The position numbers and the translations under genes were made by a program. Shown one piece after another: positions 2,190-52,500 of a DNA stretch of 64,000 nt; the stretch's first letter is position 1, and every line of letters begins with the position of its first letter. The notes beneath the pieces are model-generated. The model ran no database searches. It was not told the DNA's origin and saw only the letters and a list, made by a program, of their open reading frames with translations. This DNA is from Paralichthys olivaceus (Eukaryota; Chordata; Actinopteri; Pleuronectiformes; Paralichthyidae), in NCBI RefSeq assembly GCF_024713975.1, contig NC_091108.1:5757001-5821000 (forward strand), given 5' to 3'.

Positions 2190-3417
2190 ATGCGGTTCAT
2201 CTTGACGATCTTCTTGCTGAGCCTGTCCTGTGTGTGTCTCACGCTGGCACAAGGTAAGGGACTGTGGACGGACACTAGTGTCACATTTACAGGACGCAAT
2301 AGAGAGCTGTGAACAAACAGCCAAATAAAATAAAGGGCCAGGGAGGCTATGTTTATATTGCTGATTGTGCAAACAGCCTTTTGATCAATCGACTCATGTA
2401 CTTTATCTATGTTGAATAATACATACTATACTGTTGGTACGGGTCACTGGATTGTACCTGACTTTACTGTCCCTCAGGGTCCTATGACGACTGCTGTCTG
2501 AAGTATGTGAAAAATAAGCAGCTATACATTCAGAAACATGCAGTGAAGTACAGACGGCAGGAGCCAGACGGAGGCTGCAACATCTCTGCTGCGATGTAAG
2601 TACACATGCATACACAACAACACATCCACTTCAAAAAAGTGTGCAGCTCACACAACCTTAGGACATACAAGAGGTATATTAGTTTTCCAGAGGTTGTCCA
2701 TTATCAGCTCCATGATCTCCTGACACTTGAATTAATTTGACTTTTATGTGTGTTTGCACATGTGTGTTTCTGTATAGAATGTTTGGGTGGATAAATGTTC
2801 AAGTATGTGTGTGTATGTGAGTATACTGTATATGAGTATGTATGTGGATATTTTGCATCTTTGATTCCAACACTGATTCCTATTAATCACATTAGTGTGT
2901 TGTCTGCTTCAAGTTCAATAGATTTTACAGCCTTTCTTTATTCTTCATGTTTCTTATTTACTTGTTGTTTCTGTTTCAATGATTCTGTAGCTTCATCATG
3001 AGGAGGGGGCGTATGTTTTGCACCGACGGCAGTGAGCAATGGGTCAAGAAGCTGATGAATGAGATTGACAAAAGGGGCAAAGAAAGGAGAAAGGTGAGTT
3101 TACCATAGTTGTTGCACTTCATTACTCTCCATGAGGATCTCTTTATCATTAGATTAGATATACTTTATTCATCCCACAACGGGGAAATTTACATCAGTGT
3201 GAATCTTTGTATTGAGATTTGTTTTTAAATTAGGAATAAAGCTAGTAATACTTTGAAATACTTTGACTGCATTGACAGATGTATTCTCTTATTCTGAGAC
3301 TTCAACCGAGAATTAACCTTTAAATAAAAGACAAGGATTTGTGTAGATTGACATGTGATAGTTAATAAAAAAACTATTTCTTCACAGCACCATCGACAGA
3401 GGGCGAACAGAGGCTGA
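2190..3417 (+). CDS. ccl28-like: CC chemokine, CCL27/CCL28-like
   Basis: Secreted chemotactic ligand for a G-protein-coupled chemokine receptor. Coding exons 2190-2253, 2478-2595, 2991-3093 and 3388-3417 join in frame to 104 aa. A non-coding first exon probably ends near 1670 (AG before GTGAGT). Residues 1-21 are a hydrophobic signal peptide ending L-T-L-A-Q. The mature protein has the adjacent D-D-C-C pair, then a Cys in D-G-G-C and one in R-M-F-C, the four-cysteine CC pattern. W-V-K-K begins the C-terminal helix, followed by a very basic tail (K-E-R-R-K-H-H-R-Q-R). D-G-x-C, the R-R-x-R stretch and the basic tail look most like CCL28, and nim1k next door matches human 5p12 where CCL28 lies. 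Human CCL28 has two further cysteines and a longer tail; here there are only four. CCL25 or another fish CC subfamily is possible. The family is sure, the paralogue is not. Confidence 0.85.
3155..3205 (-). repeat. Short dispersed retroposon tail, antisense, in chemokine intron
   Basis: The stretch with ACTTTATTCATCCC and ACGGGGAAATTT is the reverse complement of the common teleost tail 'aatttcccc...gatgaataaagt'. The same family is seen on the plus strand near 6745-6800. Only the terminal fragment remains. Confidence 0.5.
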
Positions 3418-4174: not shown

Positions 4175-4567
4175 GAAAAACCACATTTATTTATATAGCA
4201 CCTTACAACAACCAAGGGTTGACCAAAGTGCTTCACAATTGCAAATCAAACATACACAAACAGCAAACACAAGACAAGAACAACAGTTTCAGTTGAAGGC
4301 TAGATCAAACAAGTATGTTTTTAGCTTGGTTTTGAACAGAGGCAGGTCAGTGGTGGTGCGTAGCTCAGAGGGCAGTGCATTCCAAAGTTTGGGACCTGCC
4401 ACTGCAAATGATCGGTCACCCCACTGTTTGCTCCTGGATCGGGGGACCTCTAGCAGGTGCTGACCAGCAGAGCGGAGAGCTCTGCCGGGTTGGTGGAGCT
4501 TCAGGGTTTCACTTATGTAGGTGCTTAACCTACTTAACTTAAGAACTGTGTCTTTATGGGGCTTCAA
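4175..4567 (-). mobile_element. LINE 3' end, L2-like, truncated
   Basis: The minus strand codes for the last part of a LINE ORF2, read 4567 to 4289. It has the segment R-S-F-A-V-A-G-P-K-L-W-N-A-L-P followed by F-K-T-K-L-K-T-Y-L-F, the hallmark C-terminus of L2/CR1-type reverse transcriptase proteins in fish. Downstream on the same strand is the typical 3' tail (AAGCACTTTGG...GTGCTATATAAATAAA), so orientation is certain. No endonuclease or RT core is present: a 5'-truncated copy. The reading frame over these 92 codons is open, so the insertion may be fairly young. Confidence 0.8.
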
Positions 4568-4569
4568 CC

Positions 4570-6640
4570 ATCAAACATTTCCAAACACTTTATGGGGAAA
4601 GAACAGGTCGTCCACGAACCAGAACATCAGTGGTTCGATGACTTGCACCTTTGTTCCGCGTACTGTTTTGTGATGGAGGAATTGCTGCACATAGATCCAC
4701 TGTATGAAAATGTATGTGTGAATAGCACTTGGAGTCATCTTCAGGACTGGAAAAGCACAAATACAAACCATTTACCAGCTTCATGAAGCTGCTTTAACTC
4801 TCATATATCACCTGATAACATCAAAATGAATGACTGTCATTGTTAAACATGAATATTCTGAGAGTGTTGTCCTAATGCAACACATACAAATAACAGATAT
4901 GTAAATACACTTCAAGAAACCCACTGCCTTTCTGCTGATCACTGAAATACAACACAAATCTATCATTTATAATAAAGGAAGTGTTAAAATCACACATTCA
5001 CCACTTTTCCCAGTGGATCGCTTTTTCACATAAAAGTATAATATTTCTTGGCAGAGTGTCACACGTTTGTCGCTCCTATTTTTGATTTTTATCTTCTCAA
5101 AATTCTGTGATCCATGCAATTCTATGTTTCATGCTCTGACATTGTGGTTTGCATATTTATTTAAAATGTATTTAGTTTTCCTCTTGACGGGTGAATATTT
5201 CTAATTGTTGTTATTTGTGTGTGTGTGTGTGTGTCTTTTCAGCCATTTGGACATTACTGTTGTTTTGCTTTGCGTGGGATCTGCAGCTCATTAACTCAGT
5301 AAAATCCCACAAAATTATTTTTTAATGTTTCAGTACAGAGAAGAAAATCTGCAGAGAGAAAGCACGTAGCACAAGTTTGAACTTCTGGTGTGTTGATTCA
5401 CAACCGACATGAGGGTTACTCTCTTTTCCTAGAACTGCAGTGACATGCAGCTGATACAATCTCTCTGTATCTGCGTACACTGATGACTTCCACACATTGG
5501 TGCCATGCAGAGGCTTCAACTTGCAAATTGTAGTCATAAAATCCTGCACATTAGTGTGTTCATTTTTGTTTATCAGACAGGTATTAACACATCCTCTCTC
5601 CCAAGGCCCGCAGATACAAGGTGAAAATGAGCCATTGTTGTTTTTAAGTTGTGCAATCATGAAAATCCTTCATGCACAAAGTATTTGCTTTGTGCTGCCA
5701 GGGCAAAGGTGATAGATAATAATTACACAGACATTAATGGTATATACTTCTTATATATCAAACAGTTTGTCTAATAGACTGGTTCTAATAGAATCTGGTT
5801 GCAGCTTGGGAAGGATTTTGGAGCTGAGGCCCAGTTTCTTCTTGTGTATGTCAAAACAACACTGACAAGTGTGCTACGCTTGTATGCATGGTGGGAAAGA
5901 ATGATATGGCTGGTTGGAATCATGAGAGATCTAGAAAATCTTTCATTAACGGGAAAATAACGTGGAAACAAAGTAAGAGACTGGAAAACAGTATATGGGT
6001 AAATCAGTTTAGGCTGGAACAAATGTGATAAATTATATTGAATGGGATGTTTGAACATGTATCAATCAGAAGAAGAGAAAATGAGACTATAACATGTCAC
6101 AGCAGGCTTTAAAAAAAGAAATAAAACCGATAAAGGTCACTATTGTTACATCTCTTTCATCTTAATAACGTAAAAAAAGCTTTGAAATTATTTTCAACAT
6201 AAATCCAAAGAGTGACTTGTCATGTTGACTCCTCTGAGTCTAGAGAGGGCAATAAAAAAGAGAAAGCAGCCATAAAACACAGCACACCACCAAGTGAAGG
6301 TACATTATATTTATTATCATTTCTCTATCCTCATGTCTTAGCTGCTATTTTCTATAGTAGCTCTTATGTATATGAGCACTATGAATCTTGCAGTTTAGTA
6401 ACAGTTGCAGACATCTTTTACTACACGTACTTCAAAGACATCTCCTGACAATAAAATGAATATAAAACATACATATAATATAAAATATTAATAATGCATA
6501 TATACATACGTTTTTACATTTAATCAAATAAGAATAATCGTATGCTACAATATAATAACATACATATTAAAATCACAATTAAATACAAATACCTTATTCT
6601 TTTTTAATGTAAACATTCAACCCAGTTTCCTCTGTTTTAA
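4570..6640. other. Intergenic DNA between chemokine/LINE and nim1k
   Basis: AT-rich, with a (TG)n run at about 5216-5234. Several ORFs of 60-110 codons occur on both strands but none has recognisable motifs or splice context. No gene seen. Confidence 0.5.
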
Positions 6641-7066: not shown

Positions 7067-8823
7067 CTACATGACGACACAGACAACAGAGTGGCGTTTA
7101 TTCAAAACTCCGTCTGAGCCCACTCTCCATCGGAGTCTGTTCTGAGATTCCTTCATGCACGACTGGTTGTATCCCACAGCCTCCACATGTCTCCTCTTTT
7201 GAATGCGATGCAGTAGAATCCGGTAGGTCCCGCTGACGGGGCTCCTCAGGTCCACGCTGTTGTTGAGGAGATGATTCCTGGTGATGCCGAGATCCTCCAG
7301 CGCTGCTTTCACATTTAGTTCATCGTGGCTGAGGATGCGGGTGGGCTCAGCCAGATGTGAGGGTGTAGAGCTGTAGGAGGGATAAGCCTGGGGGTACTCA
7401 ACACCTCTCATCCAATCACTGGACATGATCTGTGCCATAGTGAGACGATCTACAGGCACCGGCCTCAAGAGGCCCTTGATGACCTCCTGGCAGGATTCAG
7501 GTACGTAAGAGGGGATGGTGTAAGAACCCTGCAGGATACAACATTTCAGTCTTCCTGTGTTTGTAGCTTTGAATGGCATGGTGGCGGTCATCATGAAGTA
7601 AAGCAAGATACCCAGCGCCCACATGTCCACACATTGACCGATATAACCTTTGCCCTTGAAGAGCTCGGGGGCAGCGTAGGGAGGAGAGCCACAGAACGTG
7701 TGAAGGACGTCGCTGGGGCAGCAGAGCGCGCTGAAACCAAAGTCACCCACTTTAATGCAGTAAGTGTTGGTGTAGAAAACGTTCTCTGCCTTCAGGTCCC
7801 GGTGCACAATATTACTATCGTGCTGGAAAAAGAGGAAACAGAGAAATTGTTAGATTCAGTTTTCTTGCAGGGGAATTGAAAAGTTGATTTCCTGCACGGC
7901 TCATTAAGAAGAAATGAAAAGTCACATGTGAACCTTATTTACTGGGACTCTTTATTCATTCTAATGTCATAAACTATTATCTTGTTAATAACGGCCCCTC
8001 TGTCTTTCATTTTCATTTTTCACTCAAACATACTGATATCACTGTTCACCAACAATCTGCTGTTGACTGACCATATGCTTGACAGCAGACAGGACCTGTG
8101 AAAACACCAGCTTGCTCTCCAGATCAGGCAGGCGCCCCCTGGTGCAGATACGTGAGAACAGCTCTCCTCCGCTGGCGTACTCCATCACCAGGTAGAGCCT
8201 CCTGAAGGTCTCCACCACCTCGTACAGACGCACTATGTTGGGGTGGGCCAGCTTCTCCATGCAGGAGATTTCAGAAGCAAAGAGCGTCTGTGAACGCTTG
8301 TCCAGACGAACCTTATCCAGGATTTTAACTGCAACTCGCTCTGTGAAGTGACGACAGACGGTAAGACGACAAGGAATAAACATGAGTGCAGCCTTTTCAG
8401 ACCAACTGATCATCACTTTGACAGATTTGTTGTAATGACAACAAAATAACAACACATAACTAAAATATGAAATATAATACATACTGAATACTTATAATAA
8501 TAAATAAACATTTGACATTATCATATGTTTATATATATACACACATATTCATACAGTGCATCTATGTGCAGCGCTTTTTCTGTCTTTGATCACTGAAGCT
8601 GTAAAAGTAGGAGTAAAGAAACATTCAGTATCTCACCTTTAGTCAGGTCATGTATTCCCAGCCTGACCTCGGAAAAGTTGCCACAGCCGATCTGCCCTCT
8701 GAGGTCGTAAAGCCCCACCCGCCGTCCAAACGTCAGATCATTCATCACCCTCTCTGAATGGGTCAGATCGTAGAAGGCCTTCCCAAAAGCTGTGTGCTGC
8801 GTGGACTCCTGCTCCTCTGCCAT
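7067..8823 (-). CDS. nim1k: Serine/threonine kinase NIM1 (AMPK-related)
   Basis: AMPK-family protein kinase switched on by LKB1 through its activation loop. Exons (minus) 8637-8823, 8072-8340 and 7067-7822 join in phase to 403 aa. Kinase motifs appear in order: glycine loop [19 protein letters not shown] with the ATP lysine, [24 protein letters not shown] (the Thr is the LKB1 site position). The C-terminal N-D-x-x-V-K-x-x-L-E-x-L-G-I-T segment and R-I-L-L-H-R-I-Q match the NIM1 tail, not other AMPK relatives. I chose ATG 8823. The frame stays open upstream without another ATG, and an acceptor-like CCACCTCAG near 8914 leaves room for a further 5' exon; human NIM1K is about 30 residues longer. 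Identity is sure, the N-terminus is not. Confidence 0.92.
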
Positions 8824-8939
8824 GTTCTCCTTTGCCTCCAGCCTTTTTTCCCCCTTTGTGGGCAACAGGCCGATGATCTCCTTCTGAGGTGGAGACGTCT
8901 TCAAGTGAGTCCCTGAGGTGGAGAAGATGGGATGCAACA

Positions 8940-10740
8940 GAAACGATTTTAAACTATCTATTTACATCATTATATTTGATGGAATAAAAGTGTACACAGA
9001 AATCACAAGATCCTACGATATACAAATTCTGTACTCACATGTTTTGCCTTTTAGGTTCTTCCTGCTCCTCTCTGTGTTGATGGTGTTATTTCTGTTCTGC
9101 AAATACATGATTCCTGCAGGTGTCAGAGAGCAGCGTGCTCACCGAGGGTTTGAAGATGAAACCGAGAAAACAAATACTAAAAGGAAAAAACAATGTTTGA
9201 GTTCAAAACCATCTGCATGCTTCAGAAAACTTGCTCCAATAAAGTTGCTCTGGTCCAGAAGCTGTTCTGATCCGTTTTGTCTCTGTGCTGCACCATTGTC
9301 TCCTGACATATAATCCAAACCAACCGGCCTGTAATCCCACAGTGTTGGACTCCACCCACGCAGACAGACAACAGACAGGCTTTGCAGAGGCTTCTTTAAC
9401 CCCTAGACTCAAACATGGAGACTGATACAGGTGCAGGAACGAGACACTGATGGGATTATATCTACTGCTTATATGACCATCATTATAGTTAGGGGTCAGT
9501 GGACTGAGGGAAGGTCATTAACACAGTCTGCATACTTCAAATGCTTGAGGTTGAACAAAGACAGAGGTCGGTTGTTTTTACATTAATGTTAAGTCAAAGT
9601 ATTGATGAATGATGCACTGATAACTTATAGCAATTCAATTTTTTGGGTCATTTTTCACCAAAGCAAAACTTTTAAAAAAAAGCAAGTTTACCTTCATGAA
9701 CTCAACCAGAAGCTTAAAGAAAAGAACGCAGGTCTGAAATCATGCCCCTTTGACATTTGACCTTTTGGAAGACACAGTGACACACTGACCCAGACACTGA
9801 GAATGACACCAGACAAAGACACAGTCCAGGTACTGATGAACTTCCCTCACGCCTGTCAACCTCTGTCTGCAGACTGGACACAGGGAATGTGATGCAGTCC
9901 TCGTGCATAAGCTGCATGTTCATGCTGCAGATGAGTCATTGTAATCCAATCACAACCACAGTGACTATCTGAGCACATGCACCGCTGAATGAAAGTCCTC
10001 CGATACGAGGATAATAAGGAGGAAAGAGAGGCTGCGTTCATACAGCCGTGTTTGAGAAGGAAGGAACTGAAATGTGTAATATCAAAGCAGACTCAACTGG
10101 AAACAGAAAATCAATGTGCAGGTCAATATCTGTGATAAAGACGACTAACGAATGAGGGAGAGATTAAAAATGCATTTAAGGTGTCAAAACATTTACACCA
10201 GGCCTGTTTCAATGTTAATGTCCTTTATGTTTACATGAAAACTCAATTCAATGAGAATGCATGAGAGAAATTCAAAGATTTAGGTTTTATATCTACTTTA
10301 AAATCTTTAAACAGATGCTGGTTAATGCATCTAAAATCATCTCTGAGAAAAGTGAATTCCTATAGTCCTAAAAAAGTGGGGAGGAGGATCACAACATTGA
10401 CAGTTTATTCTTGACCTTGAACAAAGCAGTTAACAGAAGTCGTGGTCCATTAGTAGCTGCTCTGGTGCTTTCTGTCTAGTAACAAATGGGAAATCGATTG
10501 ATGGCATATGTTCAATTATTTATTTATTTTTGACTATTGTTTCCTTGTTCACATGTGAACTTATAATGTCAGCTTGTGCTCCGAGAGGAGGAAATTTGTA
10601 AGAATCTTTAATGCCATTAAACTTTATCTGCTGAGGGAGATCATGTGACACACACAAGCTCCAGAACAGCCACAAATGGACTTGGTGGTTGAGGTTGTAT
10701 TTACTTTTTTCTTGTGTTGTCAACAGCACTGCATTTCATT
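8940..10740. other. Intergenic DNA upstream of nim1k
   Basis: Holds the presumed nim1k promoter side (nim1k reads leftwards). No gene found. ORFs at 8918-9313 and 9714-10041 lack motifs and splice context. Confidence 0.45.
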
Positions 10741-12132: not shown

Positions 12133-15100
12133 ATGGACGTACCCTGGTCGTTGTTTCTCCTCCTGTGCGGCCTCCACATGACCTGTAAGTACTGTTTGCT
12201 TTGCTCTACTCTGCTGCTGCTGCTGTGACTTTATCCAGGCATCTACTCACTCACTGGATTAACACCATGTCTGCTCAAATGTACTTGCTAATCCCTTGTT
12301 ATGTGATTAAACATGGGGAGAGGATGTGGTGCTGGAGTATATGAGTGTTAGGTTCACATGTGACTACTGCAACAGTGAGGTCAAATTACTACAACTGCAT
12401 ACTTTATATCACAAAACACTTCAGTATTATTTCTTAACTCTTATTTTCATTATGGATACATGAATAAAACACTTATTTTCAACATAACCGTGCCAGGATC
12501 TCTTATTCATTTTTCCTACTGAGTAATTGTAACACATATTCAAACAATCAATGTTTTCCATTCACAAATAACCCTGAAGAAAACAAATCCTGCACAGTTG
12601 CCTTTTGTTTAATTTTATTTTAATATCGATTGCATGCTCACGACTTTACTTCCTCAAACCTAACTGATAACATGTTACGTCAACGATGGTGCTGATGTGT
12701 GTTTACGGTGTGTTTTCCAGTGACTGGGGTGTTTGGCAAACACATCGACCACACAAACCTGTTCACACAGAGAATGTGCTGCAAGAGACAAAGCCACTTT
12801 GTGTACCTAGGACAAGGTAACTCTCCACAATCCTTCAGCGAATACTGATTCATCTTTATGCTTTCTTTGGTGCTTTTTATAGAAATCCAAAAATTACTTC
12901 TCGTATTTCATTTTTGGATCGTTCAATAGCAAATCACACATGTCTATGCATCTATCTATGCATCTATCTATGCATCTATCTATCTATCTGTCTATCTATC
13001 TATCTAACTCTCTGATCATTATTCTCTCTCTCGTCAGACATCTCTGGGAGTCCTGTCAGTGTGGACGTGGGGATGTGCAGGTCTCACTGTGGAGGAACCT
13101 CATCCAGAGCCTCCTCACATGAGTCCGGGCAGCAGGATTATTCTAAATATTCCTCCATGCTGGAATTCCTCAGGAGCAAAAAAGTAAGTGGCGTTTCCCA
13201 TCCTCGCCACCAGGGGGCGTCACTGTGACTTGTGTGGTTATCTGATAAGGAGGAGTTGACTTTAAGGGAGTCAATGTGAAAACATGAAAACTTTTCTATT
13301 CGGCTCATATTTGACTATAAACTACTAAAAAAATAAACTTAAGTAAAAGTAAAAAATATATAAACGCATGATCAATAAATGGATTTGGGGCATTTTGGTG
13401 TAAATATCACACATGGGAAGTTGAGCCATTAATACTCAGACATGTTGTGACATGTGTGACTCGAACAATTAAAACAACTTTCCAATCACCTCCCTAAAGC
13501 TGAGGACCCGAGGAGCCGGAGCTGCTGAGAGCCCAGAGCCGCAGAACCAGAGGCCTTCCTGCGGGGCCGACCAGCTGTGTGAGCCCACCGGGATGCGTGT
13601 GGAGCGGCTGCTGCTGCTGGAGGGGCCCCGCGAGGTGGAGGTGATCGAGGAGTGTCACTGCGAGATCAAGCTGAGTCAGTGCATCCGAGTCCCGGCGCTG
13701 AGGACGTACTTCTCCGAGACTCCGTACGAGACCGTCATCGACGTGGGAGGATGCTCCAGCTCCAAGGGCTCCCCAGGTGTGTGTGTGTGTGTGTGTGTGT
13801 GTGCAACAAACACAACAGTGAGTGATGTAACAAACAGCAGGTCATCACGTGCAAAATTATTCAGTTAGAAATCAGAATTTAAGTCACGTAAAGTTTTTTA
13901 CACATTCACTTGTTTTTTAAATTCCTGAGTCAAGTATTTTGATCATTGCACATCATAATATCTGGTTCAGATTGATTATGTTCGTGCTTTGAGTTAAGAT
14001 TTAAAAAGCATAGTGTACCTGAGGTTTAGTTCTATAAACTACAACTTAGGTCCAAAGTTCAAGCCATTAAACTTATGTGGTGGCTGATGTGGGATTTATT
14101 GCTGTTCACTATACTGATACAGTTCAAGCTCAAGGTCTTGAGGTCTAAGGATTTGGTTTCATTATAATCAAACAAAGATCACAATCTAATTGAAAATACA
14201 GAGTTTCACACCAGTGTTCAGATATCACTGATGTAAACTAACATTTAACTGCATCAGAAAAATACACGTAATGAAACTCCTGTCGAATACATTGAAAGGC
14301 CCATCGCAGAGCTGCCTAGGATTTATCTGTTTGTTTGGATTTGGATCTCAGATTATAACTGAGCTTTTCTTCCTCCATATAAATCTAATACTTCCTTTAA
14401 CAATCATTCACAGAGGGATTCTCCTGTGTCCCCACCAAGTTTGACTCAGCTCTGGTGGACACCCCCAACAAAGTGGATCTGATCCAGACTGTGGTGGCCT
14501 GTGAGCTGAAGGAAAGCTGCTACAGGGTCCCATACGTGGAGTATTACTATGAAATAGTCCATCATGCAGATGGGGTCAAAGAAGAGAGGCTAAAAGTAAG
14601 AACACAAACTTTTCTTTCTATTTTCATCCACAATTTACACCAGAGCTCATTTCTTCTTGGATTAGCTCGGCATACTTAACACCAGCAGAGCGTTTCATTT
14701 CTGATGCCGCTTTCACACTCTTTTGTCACCAAGCTGAGAGGAAACGGGGAAGGAGTTTGGTGCCAGACAGTAATGAAGTATCTTCATTCATCACACACGT
14801 GTGGGAGGCGGCACTTAATCAGGCTAATCTGCTGGCCAGTGGCTGGCACCGCACGTCCTGGTGTGAAGGACTTCAGGATGTGTCGCATGCTTATTCATGC
14901 GCAACCTGCAGCAATACACATTATAGACTGGCAGGTTTCATTTTGAATAGAGACAGAGGCATTTCTTCCAACTCACTAACTTCCAATGAACACGGAGAAG
15001 AGAAAATAGGTTTCAGAGGCTAAAACTCCTCCAACACTTGTGTCAAAACTAATTTATTGTGAAACAAGCACTTTTGACCTCAACAGGATCTAAAAAACAT

Positions 15101-15622
15101 TATAAATTGGATGTTTGTTCCGATCATATTGCAAATAATACAAGCTCTACATTCTGTGCAGTAAAACCTTTTCTGGGAAACAAGGATTTAGATCCAGTAC
15201 TTTATATCCCATTCAACAAACTCTTTAAGGAATTGACTACAAACATTCTGAAAGACACAGAAATCAGGCCTTATTTGTGATTTCAACATCAGACATTTTC
15301 TAAATGAAGGAGTTGATAGGGAGAATTTTAAACTGCCTTCCTCCTCTCCCTGCTGTTGGTCATCTGCTGTGTTCCAGCACCAGAGGTGCGAGCAGAGTGC
15401 AAACACAAATGGCCCCTGCAGGTGTCGAATCAAAGCAGTTAACATGATAAACAGCAGCTGGGCCCCGGCTCAACTGGGTCAATATTTGTGACCAGCTGTG
15501 AGCTCATTGCCCTCTCTCTGTGTTGCTAATTTTCCACAGGAAATAGATGTGGGCAGATGTTTGGGAGGCTGCACTACAGGAAACCGATGCCTTCTCAGGT
15601 AAGTATGAATGCAGCTGCTGCA

Positions 15623-15666
<44 letters not shown>

Positions 15667-15674
15667 CACACACA

Positions 15675-15712
<38 letters not shown>

Positions 15713-16217
15713 CTGCCACTCCCATAACAATTGCCTGTGAGCTCTGACACCTCCTGAGCTCTGCATGTTGGCCTTTCTGGTTGATTCCTACAATCCGATT
15801 TTTCTTTTAAACTTTCAGCATTAACGATTGTGGCAGACCTCTTACATCATCGCTGCCAGTTTATAATAAGCACAATAACAACAATTTGTGCGCGCGTGCT
15901 TGTTACATTCTAGGAATAACACCGGCTATTACAAACTGCAGTTTAATTGTTTATTTGAAATTTCTGAGCGAAAGAAACTATGTTATGGGAAACACAGCAC
16001 ATTCATAGGTTGTTTAATGCTGTGAGAGTGATTTTAATCTTTTTATTTTTCTATTTTCTTCCTCAGAAGTCCGTCTGATCCTGGGAACTGCCACTTATGG
16101 GCTGAAGGACAGTCCAGCTCCTGCGTCCCTCAAAGCTATGAGAGCCACAGCTTCCTCAACCATCATGGAGTGTTACGCACAGTCCTCTCCATCACTTCCT
16201 GCCTTTGCCAAAACTGA
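12133..16217 (+). CDS. pnhd: Pinhead, secreted cysteine-rich developmental signal
   Basis: Secreted protein linked in chordates to dorsoventral patterning, encoded next to Admp. Exons 12133-12184, 12721-12816, 13038-13183, 13500-13776, 14414-14595, 15540-15598 and 16067-16217 join in phase to 320 aa. ATG 12133 has a good context (GCC before ATGG) and starts a signal peptide (W-S-L-F-L-L-L-C-G-L). About 20 cysteines follow. Two homologous modules are visible: C-H-C-E-I-K-L-S-Q-C-I-R-V-P (exon 4) and C-E-L-K-E-S-C-Y-R-V-P (exon 5). D-V-G-x-C occurs three times (exons 3, 4, 6). The end, T-S-C-L-C-Q-N, resembles the close of a cystine-knot domain. The exon 4 donor is the first GT of a (GT)n microsatellite. 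I identify it from the secreted cysteine-rich character plus its place 1.8 kb upstream of admp in the same orientation; I could not align it to a reference pinhead. Alternative: an unrelated CTCK-like secreted protein. Confidence 0.75.
12942..13012. repeat. TCTA/TGCA microsatellite in pinhead intron 2
   Basis: Repeats of TCTA with interspersed TGCA and TCTG, ending about 25 bases before the acceptor of pinhead exon 3. It supplies most of the pyrimidine-rich stretch before that acceptor. Confidence 0.85.
13777..13802. repeat. (GT)n microsatellite at the pinhead exon 4 donor
   Basis: About 13 GT units begin exactly at the splice donor after CCCCAG. Every unit after the first is a potential, weaker donor. 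Confidence 0.9.
15624..15710. repeat. (CA)n microsatellite in pinhead intron 6
   Basis: Long CA run interrupted once by TATATA, starting about 25 bases after the exon 6 donor. Likely length-polymorphic. Confidence 0.95.
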
Positions 16218-16376
16218 ACACTGCGCCTCCTAGTGGGAAAAACAAGTTCCAAGACCTGCAGGGGCCTCCCAAAGCTTGACTCACAGGGACTTAACCCTAT
16301 ACTGTGACATTCATTCTTTTTTACTCTAAAGTATTATTGTATTATATGTAATATATGTAAAAATGATAATTTTGTA

Positions 16377-16382
16377 AATAAA
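16377..16382 (+). terminator. Poly(A) signal of pinhead
   Basis: AATAAA 160 bases after the pinhead stop, followed by AT-rich DNA. It leaves about 1.5 kb to the admp TATA box. Confidence 0.6.
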
Positions 16383-16399
16383 TTTAATACCACAACAAC

Positions 16400-17900
16400 A
16401 TATAAATTGTCATTTTACCACAGTGGAAAACATTTTATCCAAACTGCAAATAAATCACATCACATGTTGGATATCACATTACCAAGCAAAATAAATAGTG
16501 AGATGGCCCACCTTTGATTTTATACACAAGATGACTATAAAACACATGTATTGCTTGTATAAGTGCAGTAAAAAAGTAAATTTACTGTGAAATGAAATAC
16601 TGGAAGCACCGAGTCCGAGACTTCTGAGACAAAAATCTATGAAATCTGAAATAAATTTGAATAAGAATTGGGATCAAATGGTCAGAATTAAGCTTTGAAG
16701 AGGAGCTTCAGATGAGCACATGAAAGATAAACCAACTTTTCAAACGTGTCTTTGGAAAAACCCACGTGCACGCAGTTAATGGCTCCTTATTCTGATATCA
16801 AAGTGTGAAACAACACTTTTCTGTGACTGCCACAGTCTGTTTCGTCTGAAGTCACGTTTTATGGCTTGTTTGTAAGGTGCCGCGTTGGAAAAGAAAACTT
16901 TGATCTCCTAAATGTTTATTACAGTGCGGGGGGGGACTTTTTTTCTCGGTCTCAATTTGTCTTTTGCTCGTGCGTAATTGTGCGTAAAGATCAAAGGGAC
17001 CAAATGGCACAGGGAGCCTTTTCTGAACCGAACTAGAAATAACTGGATAAAGAAAACAAGTCCAAAGAGTAGCTTTCAAAAATGTACTTTTTTTTAGAAT
17101 CAGTGTTAACATATTCAAACATCTAACATGGATTATATAGCATATATATTTCTGTATCTAAATTGGTGATGGATAAATGCTCTACTAAATCGATATCTCC
17201 ACTATCTCTGTAAATATTTGTGGGATTTTACACAGTGAGGTTTATTCAGAATGAACATGATCAAATTGCTGTAAATAATATAAAGAAATGTGTCTGTTAT
17301 TGGGAGAAAGGGAACATGGGTGAAGCGATTTTACGCACCACGCCAGTTTATGCCATGAAAGAGGCCTCTCCATGTGGATTTCTTTAAAAAAAAGAAAAAC
17401 CAACTAAAAAGTTGTGGTGATTATCCAGCTGTAACTGAATAAGCAGTTATGTAAATCTTACGACGTGTAGCCAGTGACACCAGCCTCTTTGTCGAAGTAA
17501 TTGGTTTCAACCTAAAACACTGTGCCCATTATTCTAAATTAATGGATTCATTTAGGCGCAGTTAACCTCCCATGGTGCGTGCACTTCCTCACGAGATCAG
17601 CTCTAAGTTTAGTCTCTTTCTATTATTTACAGTCTAAAGTTATATATGAGAGAAACATACATATTAGAGAACGACACACTCACTGGTCACTAAGTATGGA
17701 GCAGTGCCAAAGGCTGGATTTAGTTTATTTGAGCCTTTATTGCCAGACGTGGAGACAATGGGCTTGAATAAAATCTACGGTGGGGTTCACACCTTGTTAA
17801 CGCTGCAATTAGTCTCCCTTTACATTCGCTGATTGGTGATTTACATTTGCGACCAAATAGCATCTTTACTGCTGTTTACCGAGGCTCTGGGGGCACTGGA
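16400..17900. other. pinhead-admp intergenic spacer
   Basis: About 1.5 kb with no gene. It must hold the proximal control DNA of admp, and any cis interaction between the two neighbours would act here. Homeodomain-type cores (AATTAATGG near 17537, GCAATTAG near 17804) are present but are common by chance in AT-rich DNA. Confidence 0.5.
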
Positions 17901-17920
17901 GAGCGAACGGGGGCATTTGA

Positions 17921-17927
17921 TATAAAA
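17921..17927 (+). promoter_or_regulatory. TATA box of admp
   Basis: TATAAAA about 100 bases before the admp ATG. This predicts a transcription start near 17950 and a 5'UTR of about 75 bases. Confidence 0.65.
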
Positions 17928-17978
17928 AGTGGAGCCTCCAGGATCCCGCAGTCACTCCAACTCCAAGTTGCTGGCTGG

Positions 17979-18251
17979 ATGTTCCAGGACACCGGTGCGC
18001 CACCGACCGACTCACGCCTTAGAGATGCTCATGTTCGCGCTCAGCTTCGCCGCCCTGGTGTGCACGGTGGCTGCACGGCCTTCACTCAACTACCTGGAGA
18101 ATCACTTCACCGCCGAGAACGAGTCCGAGGAGGTTCGTTCAGCTGCCATCAAGAGGCTCCTGGAGGTTTTTGGGATGGAGGACCCTCCTGCTATCCATGG
18201 ACACAAGCAGGCACCTCAGTACATGCTCGACCTGTACAACACAGTGGCTGA
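17979..18251 (+). other. Upstream ORF overlapping the admp start
   Basis: An ATG at 17979, after the predicted transcription start, opens a 90-codon frame that runs past the admp ATG and ends at 18251. Its context (TGG before ATG, T after) is weak, while the admp ATG has a G at -3, so leaky scanning is plausible. The peptide has no recognisable motif. Confidence 0.4.
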
Positions 18252-19968
18252 TGTGGACGGTGTCACCAAGGACCCATATCTTCTGGAGGGGAATACTGTG
18301 CGCAGCTTCTTTGACAAACGTAAGATCCAACCTGCGTTTTCAACTGGCTGCTGCAGAAGATGAAGCATTGGAGGGTGTTTGGTTTCTAATCATATCATTT
18401 TCCTTGCAGTGCGAAGTGAACAGGTGGAGTTCAGGTTCAATTTGTCCACGGTTTCGAGGACTGAGAAGATTCTAACTGCAGAGCTGCATCTTTTCAAGCT
18501 GCGACCTCAGGCAACGCTCACATTCAACAGACACCACTTCTGCCAAGTATGAGACATGAAGAAATCCCTAAAGATAAAGTGCAAACAGTGGTGCTTCTCT
18601 CTCCTGGATGTGTCTAATGTTTGGCTCCCTTCATTCTGTTTCCTCCAGGTCAGTGTTTATCAGCTGCTTGACACCAGCAAAACCAACAACACACAGGGGA
18701 GGAAGCTGCTGTCTTCTCGGCTCGTCCCTGTCCACTCCACTGGTTGGGAGGTTTTCACCATCACACAAGCTGTAAGTAGCCTCTTCTATGGAAGTTCCTC
18801 TGCAAACACGGAGGAAAATGTTGCATTTCAACTGACCACCGTGATCTTCCTCCTGAAGGTTCGCTCCTGGACGGTGGATGAAGGCAGCAACCTGGGCCTC
18901 CATGTGGTGGTTCAGACCCTGGGAGGAAGCCAGATGGACATGAAACTGATCCGCTTCGCTTCAGGGCGCAACCACCACCAGAGCAAACAGCCCATGTTGG
19001 TTGTCTTCACTGATGACGGACGCAGGTCCACTACTCTTGAGAATGCAGGTGAGTTTCTTTGGTCAGATTACGTCTAGTGTTGGTAAAAAAAAAATATACA
19101 GCTCAGGCATTTTTGTGGGCTTACTGCTGATGAGCAGGGGTGTAGAGAGGAATTTTGAAGCCCAGATGGAGCTCTGGCCCCCACAGCCCTCATTCTTATC
19201 CAATCACATCGACTTGATTTATGGTAATTTCAACAACTCAGTTTTCTACAGAGTGACCTCACCTTCTCTTAAAGTTTAGACACAATGGAATGTATCTTAT
19301 TCCTAATATATATATATTTAAATATATTATTTTAGCTTTTAATTATTTAACCAAAAAGCCAGCGAGCATTTTGTAATTGTTGTGTAATTCATAACAAGTA
19401 AGCATTTTAATTATAAGTGCTATTGTGTTCAGATTAGTTTCGTTATGTTTCAATTTAAACTTACTCTTCATAACTCAACTTTGCACTTTACACAGAACCT
19501 TAGCATGATGTCTAATGTAAAGTTTTTCGTTCCTCCACAGATTCAAATGATACCCCAGTCACCCCCAGCCTGCCCCACGCCCCCATCGTGTCAGGCCCGC
19601 CCTCCCGCAGCGCTCGCTCCCTGGACTACAGCGAGGAGGAGGGCGTGACCACTTCCTGCCAACGCCAACCACTCTATGTGGACTTCGAGGAGATCGGCTG
19701 GTCGGGCTGGATCGTCTCTCCCAGGGGTTACAACGCGTACCACTGCAAAGGGTCTTGCCCGTTCCCCCTGGGTCAGAACATGAGGCCAACCAACCACGCC
19801 ACCGTTCAGTCCATCATCAACGCCCTGAAGCTGATGAAGGGCATCGAGCCGCCGTGCTGTGTGCCAGACAAGCTCTTCTCCATCAACCTGCTCTACTTCG
19901 ACGATGACGAGAACGTGGTGCTGAAACAGTACAACGACATGGTGGCGGGAAGCTGTGGCTGTCACTGA
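18025..19968 (+). CDS. admp: Anti-dorsalizing morphogenetic protein (BMP-family ligand)
   Basis: Secreted TGF-beta/BMP-type ligand made in the dorsal organizer, where it limits dorsal fate. Exons 18025-18319, 18410-18546, 18649-18771, 18859-19048 and 19541-19968 join in phase to 390 aa. Signal peptide M-L-M-F-A-L-S-F-A-A-L-V-C at the start; exons 1-4 and early exon 5 are the prodomain; R-S-A-R before S-L-D is the furin site. The mature domain has V-D-F-E-E-I-G-W-S-G-W-I, C-K-G-S-C-P-F-P-L, N-H-A-T-V-Q-S-I, P-P-C-C-V-P and ends C-G-C-H, giving the seven-cysteine knot with the CC pair. G-Y-N-A-Y-H-C-K-G-S-C fits Admp better than BMP2/4/16, and the pinhead neighbour supports it. Introns are short (80-110 bases) except the last, about 490. 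Mammals have lost this gene. Confidence 0.9.
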
Positions 19969-20707: not shown

Positions 20708-23700
20708 TTACTCTGCCTCTTCCTCTACCAACCATTCCTCTGCGGGACTCTGCAACTCATGTCGGGAGAGATGTTGCACGACTCCCACACCGAAACAGTC
20801 GCCCAGCACATTGGTGGTTGTCCTCAAACGATCCCTGTCCACAGTCACACGGGAAGTTTAGAAACTCATTAGTGTGACTTTATGACACACAGAAGATCAG
20901 GAAGACTTATGGGTTTCAGTAAATGTGTAAACCCGAGAAATACTATGTAACTATATCTATAATATACATGATACAACACTGGCAGTGTAATTTTCAGACT
21001 GTATTTTTGTTGTGAGGTTGTCATGACACACACTTACAGCATCCAGTCAACTGTGACGATGTATGAAATGCCTTCAAGGGGCAGGCCAACTGATGACAGC
21101 ACCATCGCCATGGTTACCATGCCGCCCTGTGGGATACCTGAGCCTCCGATAGCTGCCACTGTCGCAGTTATACTGAAATTACATAAAAGAGAACAAATGA
21201 TAATGATAGAAAACACATGTGAAAATAACAATAAATAACAACATGGAAGAAAAAGGAAACATGGTTGAGTTAAAAACACAAATATAGAATGAGTTCATAT
21301 GAATTATTGATTATTGATCAAATGCTCTGGTTCAATGATGAGTTAATAACAAAATAATGTTAATAGATAAATCAATACCTCAACATTTAATCCAGTATTA
21401 TTACCCTTTTCTACAGTACGTATAAATGGCTATTCAATAAAGATTTAGAAAAATTACATGATAATTTCTGTTATTTAAAATTAAAATTTGATCATACCTG
21501 ACGATGATGATTTGACCCAGATTAAGTTCCACGTTGTAAACCTGGGCTATGAATATGGCAGCAACAGCCTCATAGAGGGCTGTTCCATCCATGGTCAAGA
21601 CGGCTCCTATAGGCACCATGAAGCGAGTCACCCGTTTGTCCATTCTGAGATTATTCTCCAGACAGTGGATACTGATGGGTAGAGTCACAGAACTGTGGGG
21701 GGGTACAATAAAACATGAATCGTGATCCCATCATTATTCAAAATGCAGCAGCGTCTTATGTTTGTTTCAATCCATTTTTATAGCATCAAATAACTAATAA
21801 AAACCAACTGGACAAATACAACATTGGACAAATTATGACCTATAATTCAACCAGCCACCAGGGGGCAGTCAAGACGATTCGGCTTAAGGAGGGTCCTCCA
21901 TCTTTATCTTTATATCTTTCTCTGGTAATAGCATGTAGCTTGTAATGAGCTGTTAATCCTGGAAGTTCCTCTCACCTGGATGAAGTCCCAAAGGCGGTGG
22001 TGAGAGCCTCGAGGAGACCAGCCATGAACTTGAAGGGATTTTTGCGAGCGAAAATTAAATAGATGAGCGGCAGGGTGAACAAGCTGTGGATAACCAGGCC
22101 AGTGGTGACAGTGAGAGTATACATGCCAACCTGAAGTCCTATAACACCAGTGTCCTTCAGCTTCAAAATCTGTCCTGCAACCAAGAAGAAGATTCCTACC
22201 GGGGAATACCTGCGGGAGAACAGAGGTGAGATGCAGAAAATGTGATGTAGTGTCAAGAAATTACTGTAGAGGGCGACTGTCGAGCAGTTTGATACCATAT
22301 CCTCATATTTTACTCACCAGATGAACACACCAATCAGATGCATGATGGCTTTACTGAGGCAGTCAAAAAAGTCCTTCAGAGGTTTCGCCTCATCCTCCAT
22401 TTTGGCCAGGACGAGGCCAAAGGCGATGCAGAAGACCACTAAGCCCAAAATATTGACCCCATTTATGGTGCCTGCCATCGGTATTGTGTTATCTAAAGTA
22501 AAATCAAGTAACGTTACTACACATCCTGATAATAACCACTTAGAACAACAGGTTCAAATTACAAAAGTGAATGGTTTTGTGGAACTTACTTTTTGCCGTC
22601 ATGTTGACATCAATAGTTGCCTTTTCAGAATAAATTGTTTTATACTAAATAAAAGACAAGAAAATCCTCATTGGTGATGATTGTTTAAAAAAAAGCAAGA
22701 GAGAGAAAAAACACCAGCATCAGTGCACAGCTCACCTTGCTGAAACAAGCCTCCACCAGATTTGGAGGAAACATATCTCTGCAAACCAAAGAAAGAGTGA
22801 AAATAGTGAATCATAGAATAACAAGGACTGGATATTCGACAAAGCTGTTTGATGCACACCTGATCAGATCCAGAAAGGCATCCAGCGTCTGCATGGTGTC
22901 CGATGTACCACCAGCGGACACTGAGGTGGGCATGGGTGATTTCCCTGGCTGGATGAGAACCACTAGGATGATGCCAGTGAACACAGCCAGGAAGGTGGAC
23001 GTGGAGTAATAACAAAAAGCATAGAGCCCCATTTTCCCAGAGGACGTCTTGTCCACCGACGACATGCCTGAAACGCAGAGACGTGTATGTCATGTAAAAT
23101 AACTGTGTAACTTCAGGTAGAATTATTACAATGTGATAATTCTTGCGTTGTTTATTTCGGTTTGGTGTTGTTGGTTTCATTGCATTGAGAATACTTCTTA
23201 TATTTAGAGACAGAGAAATGCTGAACTTTTGGTTTAATGTTGGGCTCTAACCTGTGATCAGACTGGAGATGATGAGAGGAAGCACCATCATCTGCAGCAT
23301 TCTCAGCAGCAGGTCTCCAGGAAACATGAAGTAGTAAATTTGCAGGTCGGTCATGTTAGCGGCACGTAGAGCAAAACCCAGGACGACACCTTAAAGAGGT
23401 TAAAATAAACATTGTTCAACTTTACATGCACTGTCAGTGGTTAAGAAAGCTATAAAGCTATAAAGCTATAAAACGACCACTTCAGTAATACAGTGATTAT
23501 GAACAAGTGATGATATCTGTTCATTATCAGCCTGGTCTAGATTACATGAAAATACAGTTCACTCTGTCTATTGACTCGTAATATTATAGGTTGTTATTTG
23601 TGAACATTAGACAATTCCTCACAAAATGATTCATTTTAAAGCAAAGGAAAAAATACTGTGCCATGAGGACTGATCCTGAATAAACAATTTACCTGCATCT

Positions 23701-26010: not shown

Positions 26011-29000
26011 ATGGGGAATAAACAGACCATCTTCACAGCACAGCAGCTCGATGCCTATCAGGTCTGTGTCAGTCGTCCTCACTCGCTCTGAATACGGCTC
26101 AGTGCAAACTGCTGGCACCTGTAAACAAGGTTAACCCGTTAATTAATGTGATGCATCCTTGAGGGCAACATTAAATTAGGTGAAAGCTTCTCTGATGGTG
26201 TTTGTTGACAGATGCATTAGAGTTAGTGATCATTTATCTCACATTTTGAATGATATAATATTTTTGCATATGAAGTCATTGGTGTAAAGTAACTAAGAAA
26301 AATTTACTCTACTTAGTTACATCACTGTCATAGTATGTATAAGTACAATTTGAGGTACATGTTATATTATACAACGGTTCAATTATTTTTCTTTCTTAAC
26401 TCTACATTTACATTTTCATATTTTAAACCAGGCAAAAATAAAGTAGTCATAATTAACTTTCTGATTTGCTTTATGTGTGCATTTCACATGTACATCTACC
26501 ATAGAGTAATTCTACTGTCTGATATCGGAAACCATCTGAATATTTCTTTCTCCGCTGCATCAGGCAGATAATGAAGCACAAACAAAGAAGAACTTCTACC
26601 TCATCTTCTTTGCACTTTCCTGTTTTTGCTTTTATTTGATTGTATTTGCAGGACTGTACTTACTTCACGAGAAAAGAAATCCTCAGGTGAGCACACAACA
26701 ACTCAGAGTGAACTCTTTTCACTCATATCAGAACAATGCTCAGTCATATTCACTGTAACACACCTGACACAGCTGAACTGTCGTCTGCACAGTACTGCAC
26801 TGTAACTCTAAACTACTGTATCAGCAGCCCTGTGCTACTGTGGGGCAGGTGACCACTGAGATCACATGGGATTTCAGATATTGCTATTGGAGAACTCTTT
26901 CGAAACTTTACCATAACAAAAGGTTTTAATGCCGTCAGTGCATTCTTCAACACGATCCTTTCTTAACCACTGACAGTGCATGTAAAATACACAACTGTAG
27001 GTATCTTGTAATTCAATATTGAAAGTACATTTCTTTAAACCTTTTCCAGACTCTTCTACCGCTATCGGGATTTGGCACCGCAGCTCGTTCCCCTTGACTA
27101 CACCAACCACCCAGATGTGAAGTTACCATATGAGCTGATTGGGAGCATGCCAGAGCTGAAGGTAGACCCACTGGTCCGCGCACACCCTGCAGACCCACGC
27201 TCCCCCTGTGCGCCCAATCCATAATTAATGGCCAACTAATCGACAGAATTCTATGAGAGGTTATGTTACCCGACTCCTTTAAACTTGAAGAAAACAGGTG
27301 GGTCCCCGAGGACACACTTTGTGGAAATGGGTCAATTATATGCTTCTTCACACGCTTACATAAAGGTCCACAGGTCTGTTAACACGCGGGTCGCTGACAC
27401 GCGCTGACAAAGGGAGGGGGCTGTGAACATCCTGCTCTCCCCCATAGACGTTCACTTTATCACAAATTGTGACAATTTTTTAAGTTTTCACTAGAAAAAC
27501 AAAAAACACACATATCATAAGAGATGAAAAACTAAATAAAACTTGTTTTGGTGACGTTTTTAACTTGGTGTTCCCTGCGTCCAGGACAACCCATTCCGTC
27601 AGAGGATCGCTGAGGTTTTCTCCGAGGACGGAGAGGGAAACATGACCCTGGAAGACTTCTTGGACATGTTTTCAGTCCTGAGTGAGATGGCTCCACGGGA
27701 CCTCAAGGCCTACTACGCTTTCAAGATATATGGTAAAATGGATTTAATCACATTAAGGATGTCCTCATTTGTATTGCATAGGTATGAACTAGCTTTACTT
27801 CACTTTTAACACCATATAGACTGTATATATAAAGATGGATGACACATCCTCCCACTCTCCTGAAACGAAGCCATTCTGTCATTTGGAGTCAAAGTTTACA
27901 CAGCAGCGATCGGGGGATGGAGCTGCGGTATTGAGGTCCTGCCAATATATGCTCGACCAATAAAAAAAAAGTCAGTCTCAGATGCCAATCGTGACTTCAT
28001 CCCATTTTTATATCAGAACAAATTAAAACCAAACTTAAACAGGAACTCTTGAACAAACTTCAGTGTGATGAGAACTACCTAAAACGACAGAAACCATCTT
28101 CCAGAAAATATGTTTGACGTTTACTTTGGTTATTTGTTATTCTGGTTACGTCGAGACGATGTGAACTTACATTTTACTTAACAAATTCAAACAGGAAGGT
28201 AATAAGTTCAAATTATGAATATATGTTACAAGTATTTAAAAAGTGTCCTGATAAAACTCAACAAAACCACACAAATCTTAACTTCTCCTTGGTGGGTTAA
28301 ACAATATGAAACATGTGAATCACGCATTTTAATATGACGCAACCATATGACAACAGAGGGCGCACGGTGAAGAGTTATCGAGCTGTAAGCATGACGGATG
28401 GTGCATGGGTTGTTATGAATGATTAACCAGCCCATTATAGAGGCAAAGCGCTTGTCAAAGCCCCCCCCCCCCCCTAATTAACAAACGATGACAGATGAAG
28501 AAGTTACATTCACATTGTCATGGTCATGGATCAAGGAAAGTTTGCATCCATTATTCAGACCCACGGAGGAGAGAAATCAAGGAAGGTGACACACTGCACA
28601 AGCACAGTTGCATCATGATGAAGATGCATGAGCTCAGAAGCCCAGATGCCAAATAAAACAATGGGAAAGTATAAAGCCTTAACTGTGGTTACATAAAAAA
28701 AATATTTTAATTATTTTTAGTTTGCCTTTGACAAAGAAAAGGAAATTAGATCAACAGTCTACAGAAATCAAGCACTGATTAATGAGTGATCCTTTCTCTA
28801 CATCTGCAAGACTTCAACAATGACGACTTTATCTGCAAGTCAGACCTGGAGAAGACTGTGAACAAACTCACCCGCAACGAGCTGACGGAGGACGAGGTGA
28901 GGATGGTGTGTGAGAAGGTGATCGACGAGGCTGACCTGGACAACGACGGACGTCTGTCGCTGGAGGACTTCCAGCACATGATTGTCCGAGCCCCAGACTT

Positions 29001-49521: not shown

Positions 49522-52500
49522 ATGTCTGCGAGCGCCGTGTACGTCTTGGATTTAAAAGGAAAGGTAAGATAACGGGACCGGCTGCTGCGATGCTAATGCT
49601 AGCTGTTAGCCTAGCGAACACATTCCTCAGTGACAGATTATGATGTGGCTGATTCCGCAGCAGAGCAGCTAACGCGTTAGCACGGGTGGATTTGCCAAGT
49701 GTCAAGGTTTTAAGCTTCTGTCTTAACGTAATAAATGTGACCTAGAGGAAGGAGCCTCGTGACATAAGATGTCAAAGCTGGAGAAGACACCAGGCCGCTG
49801 GCTAACAGGCAGGTGGTGTCAGCTGTTAGCTAGCAGCAAAACTCCCTTTCAAATTCGTCCATTTTACGCGTTTTTTGCTTCTGTGCAACACTTGACCTAC
49901 ATTTTACTAAATACACGGAATGCATTTTCAGCTCTGATCGTCCTCTGGTCCATTCGGCTTTAAAGTTACTCATCAAGGTTGAATGGCAGATTGAAGCATC
50001 CAGTTTACCATTTATGGTATAGTGCACATATGTTTGATTAAATAGTGCACCTAAATTAATTTTATTAAATATTTCAAGCAAATCTGCAGATGGATTCACC
50101 TCTTGGATTTAGTGGGATTTAATACCCGACTTTTTCCATTTCCAGTTTATATCAGGGTGAAACTATTCTCATTAAGTGTGGTTAAAGATTAAAGAATAGA
50201 TTTATGAATGCGTGCACATATAAAAATGCAGTAGATTATTTGATTAACTTCACTCCTTACTGTTCAATCTGCTAATTTATCAATGACAATAATTATCAGG
50301 GGCATGTTACAGGAGTGATAATGATTTTTTCACACGCTCTCATCTTCCTGAAATATTTCTGGCTGCAAAGTTGTAAAATGGAGGCTCTGCTCTTTATTTA
50401 CTTAACTCAAGAGTTCAGGGTTTGGTTAAACGTGCTTTCTGGAACAGGCCCCTGGTTTTCAGCCCTTCCAAGCTTCAACAGTACTGTTTGTTCCTCTCAG
50501 GTCCTGGTGTGCCGAAATTACAGGGGAGATGTGGACATGTCAGAGATCGAGCACTTTATGACCCTTCTGATGGACAAAGAGGAGGAGGGGACGCTGTCTC
50601 CAATCCTGGCCCACGGGGGAGTCCGTTTCATGTGGATCAAACACAATAACCTCTACTGTATCCTTCCTCTTAACTGCATGGTATTTGTAGCCAGGTAACT
50701 TCTCGAAACCTGATTATTTGCTTTTTGTGACTGTTTTGACTTTAAACTCTTTTTCTTAACACACAACACATCAGTGGTTGCAACATCCAAGAAAAATGCT
50801 AGTGTTTCGCTGGTGTTCTCCTTCTTGTACAAAATTGTTCAGGTAGGATTGAACTCTTCACCTGCTTCGGTTAATACACACCTCAAACAAAGACATGTGT
50901 ATTCTATGGACAGTTTTGGAAAAACAGGTTTATGAATCAACATTTGTGTCCCTCAGGTTTTTTCAGAGTATTTCAAAGAATTGGAGGAGGAGAGCATTAG
51001 AGATAACTTTGTCATCATTTATGAGCTGATGGATGAGCTGATGGACTTTGGCTATCCTCAGACCACTGACAGCAAGATTCTGCAAGAGTAAGTATCCCCT
51101 GTGAGTCACAGTCTCACTGCCAGAAACTAAAAGTACAGTCATTAGAGATGCGACCAATTAATACTGTCCATTATTAACCTTTAGATTATATTTTGATTGT
51201 TAGTCTATAAAATGCCCAACAAACATTACAAAACAAAATTAAACCTTATTCTTTTGAAAATAAAAGGTAAAGAAAATAGTTTCAGCTGAGTAGCTTTAAT
51301 TCTTTTTTCCAAATAATGAATTCAGGGAGTTATAAAAGTAATTTTTGGATTTGAATTTCAGATGATTGTTGAGTAGCAGTTAAACTGTGTTTATAGGTTA
51401 CTTTGTGATACTGCTGTTATTTTCCCATATCTATCTAAAAGTCAAGGATTCTATTGTCCTCCAAAAGAACCACAAATAACCATTTAAACTTTCAGCCCTG
51501 TGATGCAGCAACCAAACTCTGGATTTCCCCCCAGTGTTCTTTGACTACAATATATACGATAGTCATGACAGTCTTTGTTCTTCTTTGATGCTTTCTGGGA
51601 ACTCCTCACCGCAGACAGTTGATTTCCTATTTTTCTCAGTTTTGCTTCAGTGTTTATGTTTTCGTCTCTCAGATACATTACCCAGGAGGGACACAAGCTA
51701 GACACTGGCGCCCCTCGACCCCCCGCCACAGTCACCAACGCTGTCTCCTGGAGGTCAGAGGGCATCAAGTACAGGAAGAATGAGGTTTTCCTGGACGTCA
51801 TTGAGTCAGTCAACCTCCTGGTAGGAACTGCTTGTTTTAGCACTGTGTTGCTTAAGGAATGCCAGTCACAGTGTTGATATACTTCCTCACTGTGTGTGTC
51901 ACAATATACTCAAGAGTGTTTAATAATCTGATCCTGTGTTCTGTGCTGCCATTTCTTTAAGTAGCTAAAGCATTTCTTTGATAAGTTCCTCCAGCCCTGT
52001 TTATCCTGGCATTAAAATCAGTTTCTGGTGATCTGATCACAAGTGGACTGCTCTTAGGTACTGGTGTGAATGAACCAATGGACAAGTATGACAATTAAAC
52101 TTCTCAGTGTTTCCAATACATCAATTTATTTGTGACCATTGTGATCAGATCACTTAAGATGCGTGCAGTTATGAACAGGTCCTCTAACACCAGCTGACGA
52201 TTTCAAATTTTCAGGTCAGTGCCAATGGTAATGTTCTTCGCAGTGAGATTGTTGGTTCCATTAAGATGCGTGTGTTCCTGTCCGGGATGCCTGAGTTGCG
52301 GCTCGGCCTCAACGACAAGGTTCTGTTTGAAAACACTGGACGTGAGTTCCCTCTCATCACGTACTATGGTCTGATTTTGTTAAAAGATGATTTGAGCTGC
52401 ATGATGGAATAAATGAGTTTTGATGATAATAAATAATTCTTTCAAAGTTTGCAAGAGTGACAGTGAGATCGATCTTCCTTACTTGGAGCTGAATATTCCA

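Follow-up and report, generated by a model that had tools for sequence, protein, structure and literature searches.

Two genes lying in tandem in a fish genome, one apparently encoding Pinhead and the other its neighbor Admp, raise the question of whether they are indeed pnhd and admp and, if they are, whether the DNA between them carries control elements that the two share or contest. Both genes contribute to patterning of the embryonic dorsoventral axis. The question arises from Ciona, in which, as Imai et al. are said to have reported in 2012, transcription of pinhead represses Admp in cis; the Pinhead-Admp tandem pair reportedly occurs in many animals. We addressed it in a 64,000-nucleotide stretch of Paralichthys olivaceus DNA, referred to below as the window. 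The two genes and the spacer between them are as follows:

12133..16217, + strand: pinhead (pnhd), named by gene order; 320 amino acids, signal-like N terminus, 21 cysteines
12133-12184, 12721-12816, 13038-13183, 13500-13776, 14414-14595, 15540-15598, and 16067-16217: pnhd coding exons
16218..18024: spacer, 1,807 bp from the pnhd stop codon to the admp ATG
18025..19968, + strand: admp, a BMP-type ligand of 390 amino acids, defined by gene model, domains, and gene order
18025-18319, 18410-18546, 18649-18771, 18859-19048, and 19541-19968: admp coding exons

When spliced and translated, the pnhd model runs from an ATG at 12133 to a TGA ending at 16217 through seven exons, and all six introns are GT-AG. 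Pinhead is a secreted, cysteine-rich protein encoded by several exons, and the features expected of it are found here in the multi-exon structure, the richness in cysteines, and the signal-like start, the most hydrophobic stretch of the protein in a hydropathy scan beginning at residue 6. Comparison of the whole 320–amino acid protein with Pfam and the Protein Data Bank (PDB) returned neither a family nor a relative. The C-terminal module taken alone (module 3, below) matched PAN_3 at E = 0.059, below Pfam's cut-off. Because the whole protein is without a match in either database, the Pinhead name rests on its position, its cysteine richness, and its signal-like start. The introns of the gene hold microsatellites, (AC)43 at 15624-15709 and an ATCT-type array at 12943-13006, and a (GT)13.5 array at 13777-13803 starts at the donor site of exon 4.

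The downstream gene has five exons, the final base of its stop codon being 19968. Its product matches the PF00688 propeptide at 5.3e-35 and the C-terminal TGF-β knot domain PF00019 at 1.9e-34. An Admp is expected to have a basic cleavage site and a seven-cysteine mature domain; in the translation, RSAR stands ahead of the mature domain, which has seven cysteines between SCQRQ and CGCH. Among the PDB matches listed, the mature domain is nearest to BMP3 (7.4e-39) and BMP2 (2.8e-38), and for the full-length ligand the closest match is BMP2 (1.9e-37). These matches (the best 60 of 68 and of 65) are BMPs, GDFs, inhibins, and TGF-βs, none of them named Admp, so that, judged by alignment, solved structures indicate the family of the ligand and not Admp as such. 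A search of viral and prokaryotic contigs with the pattern of the mature domain matched 1 and 28 stretches, respectively, of which none encodes a relative.

Since family matches do not fix the names, Pinhead was named from gene order and Admp from its domains together with gene order. The genes of the window follow one another as chemokine exon, kinase, pnhd, admp, SLC1A-type transporter, CIB-like gene, RAB8-like gene, tropomyosin, and AP-complex subunit. Apart from the pair itself, they are:

2462..2596, + strand: chemokine exon, ccl25b by position (PF00048, 2e-06)
7070..8961, − strand: protein kinase gene, divergent from pnhd (PF00069 at 7070-7849 and 8042-8491)
21975-23089, − strand: SLC1A-type transporter gene, between admp and the CIB-like gene (PF00375)
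EF-hand gene, CIB-like (PF13499, 1e-11)
Ras-family gene, RAB8-like (PF00071)
tropomyosin gene (PF00261, 3.6e-12; another piece below the cut-off)
AP-complex medium subunit gene (PF00928)

The finer names SLC1A, CIB, RAB8, and AP1M are ones we assume from the look of the sequences, and the kinase is presumably NIM1K-like, to judge by resemblance. The kinase extent includes a piece, 8593-8961, that has no Pfam match and was counted in on its codon score only; the presumed CIB exon at 27564-27806 has a Pfam match at chance level only, and the piece at 50276-50695 has none; these three are among eight pieces compared with Pfam in one scan. Among the codon-scored frames there is also an open frame at 4292-4570 on the − strand, RSKQWGDRSFAVAGPKLWNALPSELR, which resembles a fragment of a LINE-type retroelement. 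A few lipase motifs were searched for in the window, a thin test, and none was found.

This neighborhood was compared with a published euteleost block, using the order in which the genes are listed in the text of PMC12111056. In the part of that text available to us, pnhd and admp are listed together in a block with ccl25b and nim1k-like; in teleosts that retain lpl1b, tpm4, rab8a, and cib3 lie on one side of it and ap1m1 lies on the other. The window has ccl25b, nim1k-like, pnhd, admp, cib3, rab8a, tpm4, and ap1m1 in common with this block. The window also has the SLC1A-type transporter between admp and the CIB-like gene, which that part of the text does not mention; this does not establish a difference from the block. 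Tilapia and medaka are described there as having no lpl1b at this place, and the window is likewise without lipase motifs, as far as the thin test goes; in Otocephala, zebrafish included, the gene set is described as absent from the lpl1 regions. The 320–amino acid gene sits where the available text lists pnhd, between admp and nim1k-like. Agreement over eight neighbors argues strongly for identifying the two genes as the pnhd and admp of a euteleost. Since the block lists both genes, their adjacency is not a matter of chance, and a euteleost such as this fish would be expected to have kept them side by side, according to the part of PMC12111056 that we cite. Neither the pair nor its location appears out of the ordinary, and the pairing was already known.

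These results bear out what a sequence-only reading had said of the genes: a seven-exon secreted cysteine-rich gene starting at 12133, an Admp ligand downstream of it ending at 19968, a gap of about 1.8 kb with both genes on the same strand, and the names pinhead and Admp. The same position in the block bears on another account of the upstream gene, according to which the 320–amino acid protein would be some other secreted cystine-knot protein lying beside admp by chance. That the whole protein matches nothing in Pfam or PDB leaves room for such an account, as does the subthreshold PAN_3 match as the sole hit of module 3 in Pfam. Against it stand the pnhd slot between admp and nim1k-like, as listed in the available text of PMC12111056, the signal-like start, and the many cysteines, and we regard it as extremely improbable.

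Within the protein, modules 2 and 3 (residues 149-223 and 217-320, as cut) match each other as repeats. Their alignment score is 59 against a shuffle mean of ~27, and it was reached by none of 1000 full shuffles and by 1 of 1000 shuffles in which cysteines were kept fixed. They have CE-K-S-C-RVP, GGC, and SCVP features in common, and the alignment shows them to be clear repeats of one cysteine module. The upstream module 1 has the DVG-C motif too; its likeness to the others is weak. Its real score was reached by 50 of 1000 full and 57 of 1000 cysteine-fixed shuffles in comparison with module 2, and by 392 and 442 of 1000, respectively, in comparison with module 3. Module 1 is a weak candidate for a third copy. 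Exon duplication was also considered as the origin of the modules: the introns are similarly placed around the DVG-C motif, yet their phases differ, and for this reason we do not claim such an origin.

A profile built from the three modules, whose alignment does not align the DVG-C motif of module 2, matched only GDF15 (E = 0.008 and 0.014), with nothing else up to E = 10. With module 3 alone, six matches were listed, none of them a TGF-β chain. The GDF15 match prompted a comparison of Pinhead with the TGF-β knot. In pairwise alignments with Admp, the real scores were reached by 102, 987, and 776 of 2000 cysteine-fixed shuffles for modules 1, 2, and 3 and by 435 of 2000 for the whole protein. 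Against a profile of Admp, BMP3, and BMP2, the table of which lacks GDF15, the corresponding counts were 303, 89, and 133 of 1000 for the modules and 305 of 1000 for the whole protein. Kinship with the knot is thus not supported against cysteine-fixed shuffles by either approach, and we describe Pinhead, as far as alignments go, as built from a repeated cysteine module whose kinship is uncertain. That it is a chain of cystine-knot modules derived from an ancient duplicate of the neighboring TGF-β ligand, still linked to its parent gene, seems to us very unlikely; if it were true, the regulator of Admp would be a captured and multiplied copy of the ligand's own knot, with SCVP in two modules where ligands have CCVP.

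The sequence-only reading had also stated that nothing lies between the two genes and had given a second, 1.5-kb figure for the spacer. The features of the spacer that bear on this and on the control of the pair are:

16377, 16449, 16490, 16650, and 17767: AATAAA motifs
17921: TATA motif
16511, 16692, and 16990 (span 16511..16997): strict TCF/LEF-like SCTTTGAW matches, a weak lead

Among the 60 open frames ranked best by a codon score trained on pnhd and admp, no independent frame was found in the spacer; the one that reaches well into it, at 17772-18248, reflects admp exon 1 read out of frame. Rfam at gathering score gave no match anywhere in the window. The 1.8-kb figure fits the distance from stop codon to ATG, and the 1.5-kb figure fits the 1,544 bp that separate the first AATAAA motif (16377) from the TATA motif (17921).

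Binding-site motifs were counted with 18 overlapping patterns in five named stretches, and the counts were compared with the mean density in the window. Strict TCF/LEF-like sites number 3 in the spacer versus 0.51 expected, and 2.7% of overlapping windows of 1,807 bp contain at least as many; a looser TCF/LEF-like pattern gave 5 matches versus 2.0 expected (5.9% of windows). Each is one of the 18 patterns and uncorrected. The window contains 18 strict sites in all, of which one falls in the fifth intron of pnhd and another two lie within 1 kb upstream of that gene. Single matches in the spacer were found to a T-box consensus (17787; 0.08 expected), a FoxH1-type pattern (17373; 0.34), and an Otx-type pattern (17130; 0.65), along with two Pou-type matches versus 0.71 expected; the full Smad palindrome gave no match there. 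The best of these results, the 2.7% for TCF/LEF, would no longer stand out once simply corrected for the 18 patterns; because so many were tried, we treat the spacer matches as leads and not as results. Counts of motifs in one sequence neither support nor refute shared or contested control DNA for pnhd and admp.

In Xenopus tropicalis, according to the passage of PMC10136858 available to us, pnhd and admp are among the endodermal genes that have super-enhancers nearby to which Otx1, Vegt, and Foxh1 bind. The T-box, FoxH1, and Otx matches in the spacer belong to the same factor classes. That passage bears on shared control of the two genes without showing it; together with the TCF/LEF-like sites near both genes, it would fit some shared control too.

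The arrangement of the locus, with pnhd upstream, on the same strand, and a short distance from admp, is what would be expected if cis repression of the Ciona type had been kept, such that an admp enhancer, located in the spacer or within pnhd itself, is put out of action when pnhd is transcribed and the two genes are mutually exclusive on the same chromosome. Several observations argue against this. No enhancer is evident in the sequence. Four AATAAA motifs lie ~160 to 440 bp past the pnhd stop codon, and because they follow it so soon, the pnhd transcript may end early in the spacer; their positions suggest an end before most of it. In zebrafish, moreover, repression is reported to run through BMP/Smad (PMC8753366, as far as the text available goes). 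We therefore consider retained cis repression unlikely, but if it does operate here, the pnhd introns merit as much attention as the spacer. No title on cis control of pnhd-admp in a fish appears among the literature matches listed, a set to which subscription papers mostly do not belong and which leaves absence unproven.

The best explanation, which we hold to be probable, is that the locus holds an ordinary pnhd-admp pair within the block where euteleosts normally have it, with BMP/Smad feedback acting in trans and a spacer that serves chiefly as promoter-proximal control of admp. According to the passages available from two reviews (PMC8753366 and PMC8034876), zebrafish Pinhead and Admp both promote Chordin degradation, repress each other's expression, and are both repressed by BMP signaling, directly by BMP/Smad in the account of PMC8753366. 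By analogy with the zebrafish literature, both proteins would act on the BMP gradient of the gastrula, and the presence of either would lead to repression of the other, largely via BMP/Smad feedback in trans. The spacer would chiefly hold admp's own promoter-proximal control. The close linkage would be inherited, and a cis effect may or may not be added to it.

The window thus offers, intact and in compact form, the euteleost version of a pair that is studied to learn how linked genes with opposite expression are regulated, and the locus could be used for tests of cis versus trans repression in a fish. What it has in common with the Ciona locus is the tandem pair; the cis effect is reported for Ciona, whereas in this fish it is hypothetical. 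With zebrafish, where Yan et al. reportedly described the mutual-repression pair of Pinhead and Admp in 2019, it has in common the same gene pair by name, known here from sequence alone.
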